Assembly: GCA_016763855.1 (NCBI GenBank)
Contig: JAESSY010000131.1
Span: 1 to 64,000 of the forward strand
DNA length: 64,000 bases
Source: Pseudomonadales bacterium
GTDB lineage: Bacteria; Pseudomonadota; Gammaproteobacteria; Pseudomonadales; Azotimanducaceae
Reading direction: 5' to 3'
This document shows positions 57,921 through 62,684 of this stretch, in pieces. The number at the start of each line of letters is the position of its first letter. The stretch's first letter is position 1. The position numbers and the translations under genes are program-made. A model generated the notes under the pieces. It made no database searches, was not told the DNA's origin, and worked only from the letters and a program-made list of their open reading frames with translations.

Positions 57921-59531
57921 CTAGCCGAAGCGGGGTGGAACAAGTATCGTGTCTTTTGCATTTTGGTCTAATCTTGGATAGTCCAAAGTGAAGTGTAGAC
58001 CGCGGCTTTCTTTTCTTTGAATTGCGGATTGTATGATTAATTCTGCCACAGTCATCAGGTTTCTGAGCTCAATTAGATCGCTGCTTATTTTATAGTTACT
58101 GTAATATTCAGCGACCTCTTGGTCTAACAGGCGAACTCGTCTGCGGGCGCGTTGCAATCTTTTATCGGTTCTAACAATGCCGACGTAGTCCCACATAAAA
58201 CGTCTGAGTTCTTCCCAGTTGTGCGAGATGATGACGTCTTCATCAGAATTTGTCACTTGAGATTCGTCCCAGTCTGGGATCGACCAATGGGGTTGTTCAT
58301 GGGGGTGTTCATCTATATGTTTCGCTGCGGCAAAACCAAATACCATGCATTCAAGTAGTGAGTTGCTGGCCATACGGTTAGCGCCATGAAGACCGGTAAA
58401 GCTTGATTCACCAATAGCATAAAGATTTGGGATATCTGTCAATCCAGATAAGTCTGTCATGATGCCCCCACAGGTATAATGAGCTGCCGGAACGATAGGT
58501 ATCGCTTCTTTCGTAATATCGATGCCTAATTTCAGGCAGCGAGCATAGATGGTGGGAAAATGCTCCTTCACAAAGTCGGGTTCCTTGTGGCTAATATCAA
58601 GGTAGATACAATCGCAGCCTAATCTTTTCATTTCATGATCAATGGCGCGTGCGACGACATCTCGTGGGGCAAGTTCACCATCGGGGTGAAATTTGTGCAT
58701 AAACTTAGAGCCGTCGGGTAGAGTTAATTTTGCGCCTTCGCCTCGTAGGGCTTCCGAAATTAGAAATGACCTCGCTTCTGGATGATAGAGGCAGGTGGGA
58801 TGAAACTGATTGAATTCCATATTGGCGACACGACATCCAGCTCGCCATGCCATTGCGATACCATCACCGGACGCAGTATCAGGATTACTGGTATAGAGAT
58901 AGACTTTACTAGCACCCCCTGTTGCGAGAACGATGTGTTTTGCTCGAAATAACTCTACATGTTGAGATCTAAGATTTAAAGCGTATGCGCCAATACAGGC
59001 GTTTCCCTTTTGTCCAATACGATCTTTGGTGATCAGATCGACAGCAACATATTGTTCGAAAATTTGGATATTTTCGTAGCTCGCCAGTTTTAGTTCCAAT
59101 TTTGAGGCTATTTCCCGGCCTGTTGCATCTGCTGCGTGAATGACCCGGCGATGGCTATGTCCACCTTCTTTGGTGAGATGAAACTCCTCGGTGCCATCAG
59201 CTTGTACCTCTGTATCGAATTCGACGCCCAGACTAATTAACCACTTTATGATCTAATCGCTTCTCTCAACGGTGAAACGCACAACTTCTTCATGGCATAA
59301 GCCTGCGCCGGCATCCAAGGTGTCATTGATGTGAGACTCTATGCTGTCGTATTCATCTAGTACGGCAGCTACACCGCCTTGGGCGTAGTAGGTAGATCCT
59401 TCGCTGACGACGTCTTTGCAAAGTAAGGCGATGTTGGGATTGCCGTTCTTTGATAGTTGCAACGCGGTGGTCATGCCTGCTGCGCCGCTGCCGATGATGA
59501 GAACGTCTACTGTATGGATGATGGTATTCAA
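57921..59531 (-). pseudogene. nadB: L-aspartate oxidase interrupted by one in-frame amber codon
   Basis: NadB oxidises aspartate to iminoaspartate for quinolinate and NAD synthesis. One frame from TTG 59531 (NTIIHTVDVLIIGSGAAG, FAD motif in IIGSGAAGMT) to 57921 encodes about 536 residues, matching E. coli (540). It is interrupted by TAG at 59255-59253 between FTVERSD and [12 protein letters not shown]. Everything after it is intact: [47 protein letters not shown] and [15 protein letters not shown]. As NadB is usually essential for de novo NAD, this is an error, a recent loss or a suppressed codon. Confidence 0.88.
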
Positions 59532-59609
59532 AATATGAGTTTCTTGTTTTATAGAATGAAAGTCGTGGATTGCAAGACTAACTAAATAGTTTCTGTTGGG
59601 AAAGTTGAT

Positions 59610-59655
59610 TTTTTTGGACCGGTAATTTTTTGGATCGGTAATTTTTGGATCGATG
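59610..59655 (-). repeat. Tandem 16-base repeats upstream of nadB
   Basis: TTTTTTGGACCGGTAA, TTTTTTGGATCGGTAA and a partial TTTTTGGATCGATG lie head to tail just upstream of the nadB start. The unit is also 16 bases, but unrelated to the one at 56231. It may alter spacing in the nadB promoter region. Confidence 0.75.
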
Positions 59656-59692
59656 TAGTCCTTAACAACGAGCTTCATATCGAGTTTTTTTC

Positions 59693-59832
59693 GCAAGGGT
59701 TCGGTGAGATCATTTTCACCCGCTGCTTTGCGGCCCTCCGGGCTTCCCTCTCGGCGTCAGCAGCCTGTAGTCTGCTTCCTTGATCGGCGCTTCTGCTTAA
59801 TGCTCCTTCAAACGATCTCACCAAACCCTTGC
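59693..59832 (-). repeat. Structured repeat element, copy A (140 bases)
   Basis: Read on the minus strand, 23-base closing arms (59832-59810 and 59715-59693) pair with 21 Watson-Crick and 2 G-U pairs. Inside are GGAGCATTAAGC, AGCGCCGATC, a hairpin GCAG...CTGC, and the conserved core at 59748-59721 with the hairpin GCCC-GGA-GGGC (59743-59733). The element is more GC-rich than its surroundings. No protein fits. It shares the core, but not the arms, with copy B. Confidence 0.65.
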
Positions 59833-59959
59833 TAGAAGATTCAATTAAAGTGCTTGAACACATACGACCAGCATATATGTGGAGTTTTTTAGTGTGAGCC
59901 ACTTTAAACGGTCTTTTTTCAGGATAGGTTAGGCCCTACTTTCAATCTTCCAGCATGGA

Positions 59960-60068
59960 GCAGGCGGTGTAGGGTGCTGATTGAAAGAGCATAAAGCGAA
60001 AGCACCGATTGAGGGAATCCCGGAGGGATGCAAAGCAGCGAAAGAGAGCAGTACCCTGCGCCGACTGC
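59960..60068 (+). repeat. Structured repeat element, copy B (109 bases)
   Basis: On the plus strand, arms 59960-59979 and 60049-60068 pair over 20 positions with 16 Watson-Crick pairs, 3 G-U wobbles and one mismatch. Between them are AGAGCATAAAGC, AGCACCGATT and the core 60013-60040, with hairpin ATCCC-GGA-GGGAT (60017-60029). The core is 25/28 identical to copy A in opposite orientation, while the arms differ. The element lies upstream of rpoE in the same direction. Confidence 0.65.
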
Positions 60069-60236
60069 GGCTCAGTTAAAGTTTATACAACCGCCCCAAC
60101 ATACCACTTCCCCAATCCCAATCCCTAATCCCTTCTTGAAACCCTAGACAAACTTAAAAAACAATAGAACCTGTTATCATAGAACTCTCGGATATACCCA
60201 TCGGCGATAAAAATTAAAAAAATATGTATAAAGAAA

Positions 60237-60264
60237 GAACTATTAGAGCCCAGGGTTGTCTATT
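60237..60264 (+). promoter_or_regulatory. Candidate sigma-E/AlgU promoter of rpoE
   Basis: GAACTA-N16-TCTATT resembles the sigma-E consensus GAACTT-N16-TCTGA and lies 76 bases before the rpoE start. Autoregulation of rpoE from such a promoter is well known in related bacteria; this particular site is inferred by pattern. Confidence 0.45.
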
Positions 60265-60339
60265 TGTGCATAGAGAGTACCGGCAGCTGGAACGGATGCA
60301 GAAAGACTTGAAAAAAAGCATCCAAATTAGGGAGTGCTG

Positions 60340-60918
60340 GTGAATTCCCCAAGAGAAACGGATCAGCAACTGGTTGAGCGAGTACAACGGGGCGATAAGA
60401 AAGCATATGATCTATTAGTGTTGAAATATCAACACAAGATAGTGGGTTTGGTGAGTCGCTATCTGAGGGATCAAGATGAGGTCCTCGATGTAACGCAAGA
60501 GGCATTTATAAAGGCTTATAGAGCTTTGCCACGATTCAGGGGTGACAGCGCTTTTTACACTTGGTTGTATCGAATTGCGATAAATACAGCCAAAAATCAT
60601 CTGGTATCCAAGTCGAGAAGACCCCCAGATACCGATCTTGATATAGATGAGAGTGAGTATTTCGAAAGTACTGGTGCATTAAGCCAGATTGAGAACCCAG
60701 AAAATAACTTAGCCACAGAACAATTGAAAACAGTGGTTTACCAAGCAATTGATGATTTGGCGGAGGATCTTAAATCCGCAATAACACTTCGAGAGTTTGA
60801 GGGTTTGAGCTATGAAGAAATAGCTGAAGTGATGGATTGTCCAGTGGGAACAGTAAGATCACGGATATTTAGAGCGAGAGAGGCAATCGAAAAGAAAATT
60901 ACCGCAATTGGTAGCTAG
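60340..60918 (+). CDS. rpoE: Extracytoplasmic stress sigma factor RpoE/AlgU
   Basis: The 192-residue sigma factor directs the envelope stress response. Region 2 includes DLLVLKYQHKIVGLVSRYL in outline and DVTQEAFIKAYRALPRFRG in outline (the QEAFIKAYRALPRF motif). TWLYRIAINTAKNHL follows, and region 4 has LREFEGLSYEEIAEVMDCPVGTVRSRI in outline. I use GTG 60340 because AGGGAG (60329-60334) lies 5 bases upstream; GTG 60334 overlaps that site. Confidence 0.95.
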   Translation: MNSPRETDQQLVERVQRGDKKAYDLLVLKYQHKIVGLVSRYLRDQDEVLDVTQEAFIKAYRALPRFRGDSAFYTWLYRIAINTAKNHLVSKSRRPPDTDLDIDESEYFESTGALSQIENPENNLATEQLKTVVYQAIDDLAEDLKSAITLREFEGLSYEEIAEVMDCPVGTVRSRIFRAREAIEKKITAIGS

Positions 60919-60977
60919 TAGCGGTAGGCGTAAGCAAGTATTGGAACAGATAGATTAGTTCAGGTAGCAAAATAGGT

Positions 60978-61001
60978 AGTAAGATAGACAGTAAGATAGA
61001 A
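60978..61001 (+). repeat. Two tandem 12-base repeats between rpoE and rseA
   Basis: AGTAAGATAGAC is followed by AGTAAGATAGAA in a purine-rich spacer that also contains looser copies (GTAGTAAG, ATAGGTAG). It is probably slippage-derived. It lengthens the rpoE-rseA gap to 120 bases. Confidence 0.6.
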
Positions 61002-61038
61002 AGTTGAGAGTAGTAAGAAGAAATCGAGAGGGAATTGA

Positions 61039-61698
61039 GTGACAGAGAAAATTCAGGAGTCTATTTCTGCCTTTATAGATGATGAGGTCAGCGAAATAGA
61101 ATTACACCGCTTGTTGAGGCAGTTTTCTAATGGAAACGCCGAGCAAAGCTTAATCAAAGAGAGTTGGATTTCATATCAGCAAATTCGCACTGTAACGAGT
61201 GGCGAGCCCAGTATTAGTGCTGCTGATCATTTAGCACTACACAAGCAAATTAGTGTCGCAATAGCTAAAGAAACGATTGAGTTAAAAGCCTCCAAACAAA
61301 CATCACGAAGTTGGATGATGCCAGCAACAGGATTTGCTGTGGCAGCCTCCCTTGTGATTGCCGTCTCTATTGGTATGGATGTCGGACAAAAACAGCGTAC
61401 CGATGTAGTAAGCACCGATGTGATTAGTGCTGATGTTGTTAAATCGGCCGAGGTCATTGATGCCCAAACTGTATCCACCGCCAGTAATTCCAACTCTGCT
61501 AATAATATTGCAGCAAGTGGCAATATTGAAACTAACGCCATTGCTTTTGATAACTCCGGTGATGAGCTGGAACTTCGCGCGTTGGATGCTGAAAAACAAA
61601 ATCGTCTGAGGGATTACCTTAATCGCCACGAGCGCATGACTCGAAATAACCCCCTTGCTCGTACAGTCGTTTATCCAACCAAGCCAAGCGATAACTAA
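61039..61698 (+). CDS. rseA: Anti-sigma-E factor RseA/MucA
   Basis: RseA is a single-pass inner-membrane protein that binds RpoE until it is degraded by DegS/RseP. The 219-residue protein starts at GTG (GAGAGGGA site). It has the anti-sigma N-terminal domain (ISAFIDDEVSEIELHRLLRQ in outline), a membrane helix at about 96-112 (GFAVAASLVIAVSIGM) and a periplasmic tail ending RTVVYPTKPSDN. The TAATG overlap couples it to rseB. Confidence 0.92.
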   Translation: MTEKIQESISAFIDDEVSEIELHRLLRQFSNGNAEQSLIKESWISYQQIRTVTSGEPSISAADHLALHKQISVAIAKETIELKASKQTSRSWMMPATGFAVAASLVIAVSIGMDVGQKQRTDVVSTDVISADVVKSAEVIDAQTVSTASNSNSANNIAASGNIETNAIAFDNSGDELELRALDAEKQNRLRDYLNRHERMTRNNPLARTVVYPTKPSDN

Positions 61699-62684
61699 TG
61701 AACATCTTTCGCAAGGCTGGTTTAACTGGTCTATTAGCGTTTTTCCTGAGTAGCAGTCCTGTCATCGTTGCAGAAACTATTCCTACAAAAACCGATGTCG
61801 TGGCGCGATCAGCAAGCGACTGGCTCGCTATGATGGACACTGCTTTGCGAGAACAAAATTATACAGGCACGTTTGTATTTGCCCGGGGTTCTCATTTTGA
61901 AACCATTGAAATTGTCCATCAATTCAAAGCGGGTGAAGAGACGGAAAGACTCACTAGTTTAAATGGTGAGGAAAGAGAAATTATTCGAGCTAATGGCGAA
62001 ACTGTTTGCTATCACGTTGATAGTGAACATCTTGATCTGTCTCACGCTATGCCTATGGGGCCCTTTTCCCACAGCTTCCGTGAAAAATTAAGTATTAACG
62101 AGAGGATGTATAATGTCACTGCGCATGGCAGTGAGCGAATCGCGGGGCATGATGCAATGCGAATTGCCATTAGTCCGCTCAATGCTGATCGCTACGGTTA
62201 TCGCCTTTGGATAGATGTTAAAACTGGATTACTCCTTAAATCCAACCTTGTTAGTCACGGTCGAGTTCTGGAGTTCTTTCAATTTTCAAGTGTGACAATT
62301 GGAGATGAAATAGCACCGTCAAAATTACTTGCCTCCTTAAGTGGAAATACGGTTCAACACACGCTTTCATTTTTGGAGCAGAAAATTGCCAGACAAAATG
62401 CCGTCAAGCATGATTGGCGTGTCGCCTGGGTCCCAAATGGATTTCGACGTGTTAGAGCGGTTGCAGAAAACAGCATGTCATTTACTGATGGCATTGCGAC
62501 AATTTCGGTTTTCGTTGAAAGCACGCCAAAGTCGTCCTTGGGTAATACTCAAGCTTTGATCGGTGGTACTGTAGTGATTACCCGTCATGTTAAAGGAACT
62601 TCTCAACAAATTACGGTTGTAGGTGAAGTACCGATGGAGACAGCAAAGAAAGTGGCTGAGTCCATAGAGCCTGTTATTTATTAA
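61698..62684 (+). CDS. rseB: Periplasmic sigma-E regulator RseB/MucB
   Basis: RseB binds the periplasmic part of RseA and protects it from DegS; mislocalised LPS or proteins release it. The 328-residue protein has a signal peptide (LLAFFLSSSPVIVAE). A MucB/RseB lipoprotein-like fold starts at WLAMMDTALREQNYTGTFVF in outline (NYTGTFVF). The C-terminal domain ends MSFTDGIATISVFVE and a basic cluster. Confidence 0.93.
   Translation: MNIFRKAGLTGLLAFFLSSSPVIVAETIPTKTDVVARSASDWLAMMDTALREQNYTGTFVFARGSHFETIEIVHQFKAGEETERLTSLNGEEREIIRANGETVCYHVDSEHLDLSHAMPMGPFSHSFREKLSINERMYNVTAHGSERIAGHDAMRIAISPLNADRYGYRLWIDVKTGLLLKSNLVSHGRVLEFFQFSSVTIGDEIAPSKLLASLSGNTVQHTLSFLEQKIARQNAVKHDWRVAWVPNGFRRVRAVAENSMSFTDGIATISVFVESTPKSSLGNTQALIGGTVVITRHVKGTSQQITVVGEVPMETAKKVAESIEPVIY

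Follow-up and report, generated by a model that had tools for sequence, protein, structure and literature searches.

The window, a 64,000-nucleotide stretch of DNA from a bacterium of the Azotimanducaceae (Pseudomonadales), carries a minus-strand gene at 57921-59696 that matches the Pfam models FAD_binding_2 and Succ_DH_flav_C and that presumably resembles nadB. An in-frame stop near 59253 breaks this gene, reflecting either decay or a sequencing error. Next to it lie two copies of a structured repeat, found at the positions and on the strands where the original prediction had placed them: copy A (140 nt; 59693-59832, minus strand) and copy B (109 nt; 59960-60068, plus strand), head to head across a 127-nt spacer (59833-59959). 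To score them we used two covariance models, R1, built from the five copies of this genome, and R2, built from 89 copies. Copy A scores 139.6 bits with R1, which was built in part from copy A, and 109.3 bits with R2, and copy B is identified by the inverted repeat, the core pattern, folding and matches to both models. Each copy is closed by a stem formed by two pairing arms, a 5' arm at 59809-59832 and a 3' arm at 59693-59716 in A (minus strand) and at 59960-59983 and 60045-60068, respectively, in B (plus strand). The core of each contains a hairpin with a GGA loop, defined by the core pattern and by covariation, with an outer pair that is G-C in A (59733-59743, minus strand) and T-A in B (60018-60028, plus strand). 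The middle hairpin present in most other copies is absent from copy B.

The core shared by A and B, reported in the original prediction as a nearly identical block, is recovered as a 30-nt inverted repeat that is 90% complementary, and the core pattern has 2 matches in the window versus 0.02 expected from shuffles. Over the 26 outermost positions the arms pair with G-U on the core strand (2 in A, 4 in B) and with no A-C in either copy, as first described; the other stem mismatches fall at positions 24-25 in A and at positions 5, 21 and 24-26 in B. Folding places both copies well below expectation on the core strand (RNA z of -5.9 for A and -5.0 for B), compared with -4.3 and -0.9 on the opposite strand. 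With DNA parameters, the z values are -4.8 (A) and -2.1 (B) on the core strand and -3.0 and -0.5 on the other. Part of the spacer recurs in the same genome on contig C95, where 76 nt of the A-side spacer and 29 nt of the A 5' arm are repeated before the sequences depart. A 14-nt direct repeat (86% identical; 59677-59690 and 59877-59890, 200 nt apart) flanks copy A and is possibly an old target duplication, or chance.

A and B are members of an undescribed dispersed family of extragenic palindromes. Its members are about 105-190 nt long and have a conserved branched multi-hairpin core inside a closing stem (about 24-31 bp) whose sequence is almost free. The genome of the window has five full copies (A, B and those on contigs C38, C46 and C104) and one truncated by the start of contig C147. 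Within the taxonomic family, R1 at an E value of 0.01 detects copies in 24 genomes of 200. R2 at an E value of 0.001 detects them both in the order (15 of 390 genomes, spread over six families) and in the class (2 of 369), with our own genome included in all three counts. Copy numbers per genome from these searches are lower bounds drawn from the best 8 or 15 candidates in each. When 110-150 candidates per genome were scored in eight genomes, we obtained 5 matches in G000, 23 in G011, 18 in G048, 50 in G068, 5 in G051, 15 in G245, 15 in G296 and 20 in G554. The original prediction had staked itself on further copies and on covariation beyond a single pair; the covariance-model search of genomes yields many copies in the genome of the window and in related ones, as expected of a dispersed hairpin-forming repeat, and massive covariation. 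That A and B merely resemble each other by chance, or through an assembly artefact, is scarcely conceivable because copies occur in many separate assemblies and the core pattern exceeds shuffles.

In agreement with the initial failure to recognise a known RNA family, Rfam (4227 models) gives no match up to an E value of 1 in 58000-62000 of the window, and nothing above gathering score in 12 loci with copies. The best Rfam hit, MIR844 (35.1 bits versus 70), sits on a different palindrome of locus L346. We take MIR538 over the L067 copy (22.2 bits versus a gathering score of 100), as well as hits that overlap or adjoin the copies of L346 and L350 and stay far under their gathering scores, to be generic long-hairpin matches. 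Three queries against plasmids, one against phages and one exact pattern against viral contigs returned 0 matches, and no description of the family was found in the portions of open-licence PMC papers that were covered. The sole copy found outside the order (G661; L366, 3288-3432) lies just after hsdM-/hsdS-like type I restriction genes, as judged by eye.

The fold is strongly conserved. The order search supplied 39 copies, which give 37 distinct rows aligned to R2; three of the rows are G051 copies that were already part of R2. Among these 39 copies the share of pair cells that form is 95.8%, versus 54.3% when shuffled and 38-54% after sliding. For the same copies, the covariation score is 0.98 versus 0.20, and double changes occur at 30 of 31 pairs. 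The compensatory G-C/T-A exchange in the GGA hairpin, on which the original prediction relied, turns out to be one among many, as all 31 consensus pairs have at least one double change in the 89-copy alignment. In an alignment-free comparison of 81 copies, the two 24-nt arms of one copy match at 90.5% of positions versus 33% for arms of different copies. The stem reaches at most 2 nt beyond the model end in 63 of 82 copies, an end that the model itself helps to set. For a test of strand asymmetry, 167 distinct copies were reduced to 85 non-redundant ones at 80%, of which 78 have arms that pass a strand-symmetric rule. The core strand of these 78 carries 75 G-U versus 14 A-C, counts in which G-U may be favoured since copies were detected with core-strand models, and the core strand is the better folding strand in 75 of the 85 non-redundant copies. 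The G-U excess and the better core-strand folding argue for selection on one folded single strand, either RNA or single-stranded DNA, and together with the covariation they bear out the proposed selection for pairing on the core-bearing strand.

A conserved branched core, strong covariation and a one-strand G-U preference could also be produced by multi-copy small non-coding RNA genes, each copy with its own start and a folded RNA that acts in trans or binds a protein. We consider this explanation possible but unlikely, given that promoter-like scores upstream of copies are no higher than in the mirror flank (6.33 versus 6.44, n = 81), that only one copy of 81 has a terminator-like T-run after its 3' arm, and that no conserved upstream sequence across subfamilies is seen in the copy flanks; weak promoters or processing may nevertheless operate. 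The genomic surroundings bear on a second alternative. Copies are mostly intergenic, and the neighbouring ORFs (191 called, 109 scanned) are unremarkable and varied, with short-chain dehydrogenases (6) as the most frequent family. Among 65 single copies with both neighbours called, 28 lie between convergent, 14 between divergent and 23 between co-directional genes. Both the intergenic placement and the share between convergent genes would suit a cis-acting element of host mRNAs, involved in stability or 3' end protection and spread by rare duplication. However, the core strand is the transcript strand in just 11 of the 23 co-directional cases, and the copies in genomes G373 and G450 lie, by eye, beyond the apparent intrinsic terminator of the upstream gene, making this explanation improbable. 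Because we find no promoter, terminator or transcript-strand bias, we lean towards a role in DNA mobility.

Palindromic repeats are common in bacteria, and to our knowledge the cause of the persistence of inverted repeat pairs is not settled. In the present family stems are nearly free in sequence, and thus genomes can show directly whether equal stems are avoided between inverted neighbours but not between same-direction ones. We compared neighbours within 400 nt and find 45 divergent, 6 convergent and 9 same-direction rows, so that the extragenic inverted neighbour pairs typical of REP elements and REPINs are found here as well; since two divergent rows represent a single locus, the 51 inverted rows stand for 50 places, including some that are orthologous between sister species. 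A second neighbour count, covering the 133 of 151 eight-genome matches left after weak, partial and unlisted ones are excluded, gives 20 divergent, 8 same-direction and 2 convergent. In the rows of the first count, stem identity averages 0.58 in divergent and 0.55 in convergent rows compared with 0.87 in same-direction rows, and the corresponding mean core identities are 0.68, 0.67 and 0.93. No inverted row out of 51 has a stem identity of at least 0.8 (maximum 0.76), compared with 7 of 9 same-direction rows. When members of divergent pairs are re-paired within genomes, about 7 pairs at or above 0.8 are expected, and none of 2000 trials gave 0 pairs. History may account for some of this stem avoidance, because the two members of an inverted pair often trace back to two old subfamilies. 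One pair, in G051, has cores that are 0.93-0.94 alike and stems that are only about 0.55 alike. Within genomes, stems are alike in 230 of 285 pairs with like cores, intermediate in 45 and unlike in 10. The five unlike stems of the five G051 copies had raised the idea that stems are made from target DNA at insertion, which we rejected given that stems travel with like cores in these 230 pairs. Separately, same-direction tandem copies in G068 (L376, L377 and L117) have a constant spacer of 53-54 nt.

These features invite comparison with known repeats. In the sections of PMC3116915 and PMC3733652 consulted, REP elements, REP dimers or REPINs and BIMEs are likewise dispersed chromosomal extragenic palindromes, and REPs and BIMEs likewise occur mostly as inverted neighbour pairs, often with two stem types and with variable spacers. 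Di Nocera and colleagues, in the sections consulted of their paper (PMC3733652), note that the two units of a REP dimer frequently have unlike stems and suggest that this difference protects the dimers from SbcCD clearance. The unlike-stem pattern is sharp in the present family, even though stems are otherwise copied with the core. Whereas REPs and REPINs are short palindromes of 20-40 bp in those same sections, the present family is five times longer (105-190 nt), has a branched conserved core and nearly free stem sequence, and has no RAYT linkage at the 30 Y1 loci examined. The unpaired GTAG or CGTC tag that adjoins the stem of REPs is absent from the flanks of A and B. The MITE-like repeats ERIC, YPAL, NEMIS, RUP and CIR, as described in the sections of PMC2229807 consulted, share with our family a length of about 100-200 nt, an intergenic location and a long stem-loop. 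By those descriptions they are set apart from it, in that the window copies have no recognised terminal repeats and the outer arms are wholly different between copies yet still pair.

We also looked for a partner that could mobilise the repeat. Y1 transposase genes are present in 18 of the 24 copy-bearing genomes; of the 39 matches, 30 loci were examined, all of them lacking a copy within 1.5 kb. Reverse transcriptases were rejected as partner since only 7 of the 24 genomes have one, and a single locus among the 42 Y1 and reverse-transcriptase loci, a reverse-transcriptase locus of G011, is near a copy. Two candidate autonomous elements were likewise discarded. The 3.4 kb between divergent copies in G554 contain three ORFs without a Pfam match and no transposase, and the 1.2 kb between divergent copies in G245 contain an ORF for a dienelactone-hydrolase-like protein and no transposase. 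The lack of a linked mobilising gene at the 30 Y1 loci counts against reading the family as a mobile repeat.

In one lineage the repeat is nevertheless associated with a known type of element. Copies in G011 lie inside units of about 250 bp. The terminal repeats of these units (about 17 nt) resemble those of an IS4-family IS in the genome of the window, where this terminal pattern bounds a 402-aa ORF matching IS4 transposase models. In related genera, copies lie inside IS4-type units with more degenerate ends. The G011 units imply that the structured part has moved as MITE cargo in at least one lineage, and the shared terminal inverted repeats could mean that the whole family is simply MITEs of an IS4-family element with the fold as incidental cargo. 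As a general account this is unlikely, and we give it little credence: the terminal pattern is present in 10 of the 24 copy-bearing genomes, in the genome of the window it is found only on contigs C37 and C115, which are not those with copies, and the fold is conserved across six families. Unlike IS4-family MITEs, the structured part in most lineages examined lacks such ends, and copies A and B have none.

Several copies are stably inherited. Orthologous copies of G018 and G085 (L171/L268 and L073/L263) have kept their stems through paired changes, and the same holds for copies of G003 and G004, which are congeners of the bacterium of the window. In a second example, an array shared by G323 and G296 has conserved orientation and flanks that are 83-87% identical. 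Simple inheritance of several orthologous copies and of one array counts against the mobile reading, and neither a clean empty site nor a target duplication came to light. Three congeners lack a copy in the interval from nadB to the sigma-factor gene, but the intergenic DNA is unalignable and so provides no clean empty site. An orthologous site for the G051 copies was not found in the approximately 217 kb (about 6% of the genome) examined of the congener G022.

Weighing these data, we think that A and B are probably a head-to-head pair of a new REP/BIME-like family, whose non-autonomous members spread and are recognised in trans as the folded core strand. In the mechanism that we propose, a trans-acting factor would recognise one folded single strand, the core strand, and mobilise it. 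The closing stem would be needed as a stem rather than as a sequence, and the multi-hairpin core would carry the sequence signal. Copies would multiply together with their stems, which would then drift by paired changes. Inverted neighbours would survive only if their stems differ, and pairs with equal stems may be lost because they would form a long, unstable DNA palindrome. More speculatively, the family could represent a new class of mobile element in which an unknown trans-acting enzyme copies a folded strand recognised by its branched fold and not by end sequences, while stems evolve freely and are driven apart beside an inverted twin; we hold this idea only tentatively, and were it true, the G051 pair with like cores and unlike stems would be the process caught in the act. 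Under the REP/BIME-like reading that we prefer, the family lends itself naturally to testing how mobile DNA that forms hairpins persists in genomes, and it gives the search for a new mobilising enzyme something concrete to aim at. The structure-based model also allows this hidden repeat to be annotated across an order.

Turnover is fast at one intergenic site whose flanks are 92% and 84% identical: a single copy in G373 stands against an unrelated head-to-head pair with unlike stems in G450, a difference that favours the mobile reading. The G450 pair (L346) is itself flanked by two more long inverted repeats, of a different kind, suggesting that the site collects palindromes. In G082, an extra copy without a 5' arm (L068, 3121-3253) is found where the sister species G065 has one copy (L072, 2989-3136), and the arm that it retains aligns to the opposite arm in the G065 copy, as would result from inversion or inverted duplication. 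Lastly, G388 (L319) and G407 (L329) show 98.9% identity as far as the end of a copy, and their sequences part immediately beyond its 3' arm (1651-1664), a breakpoint at the end of the element.
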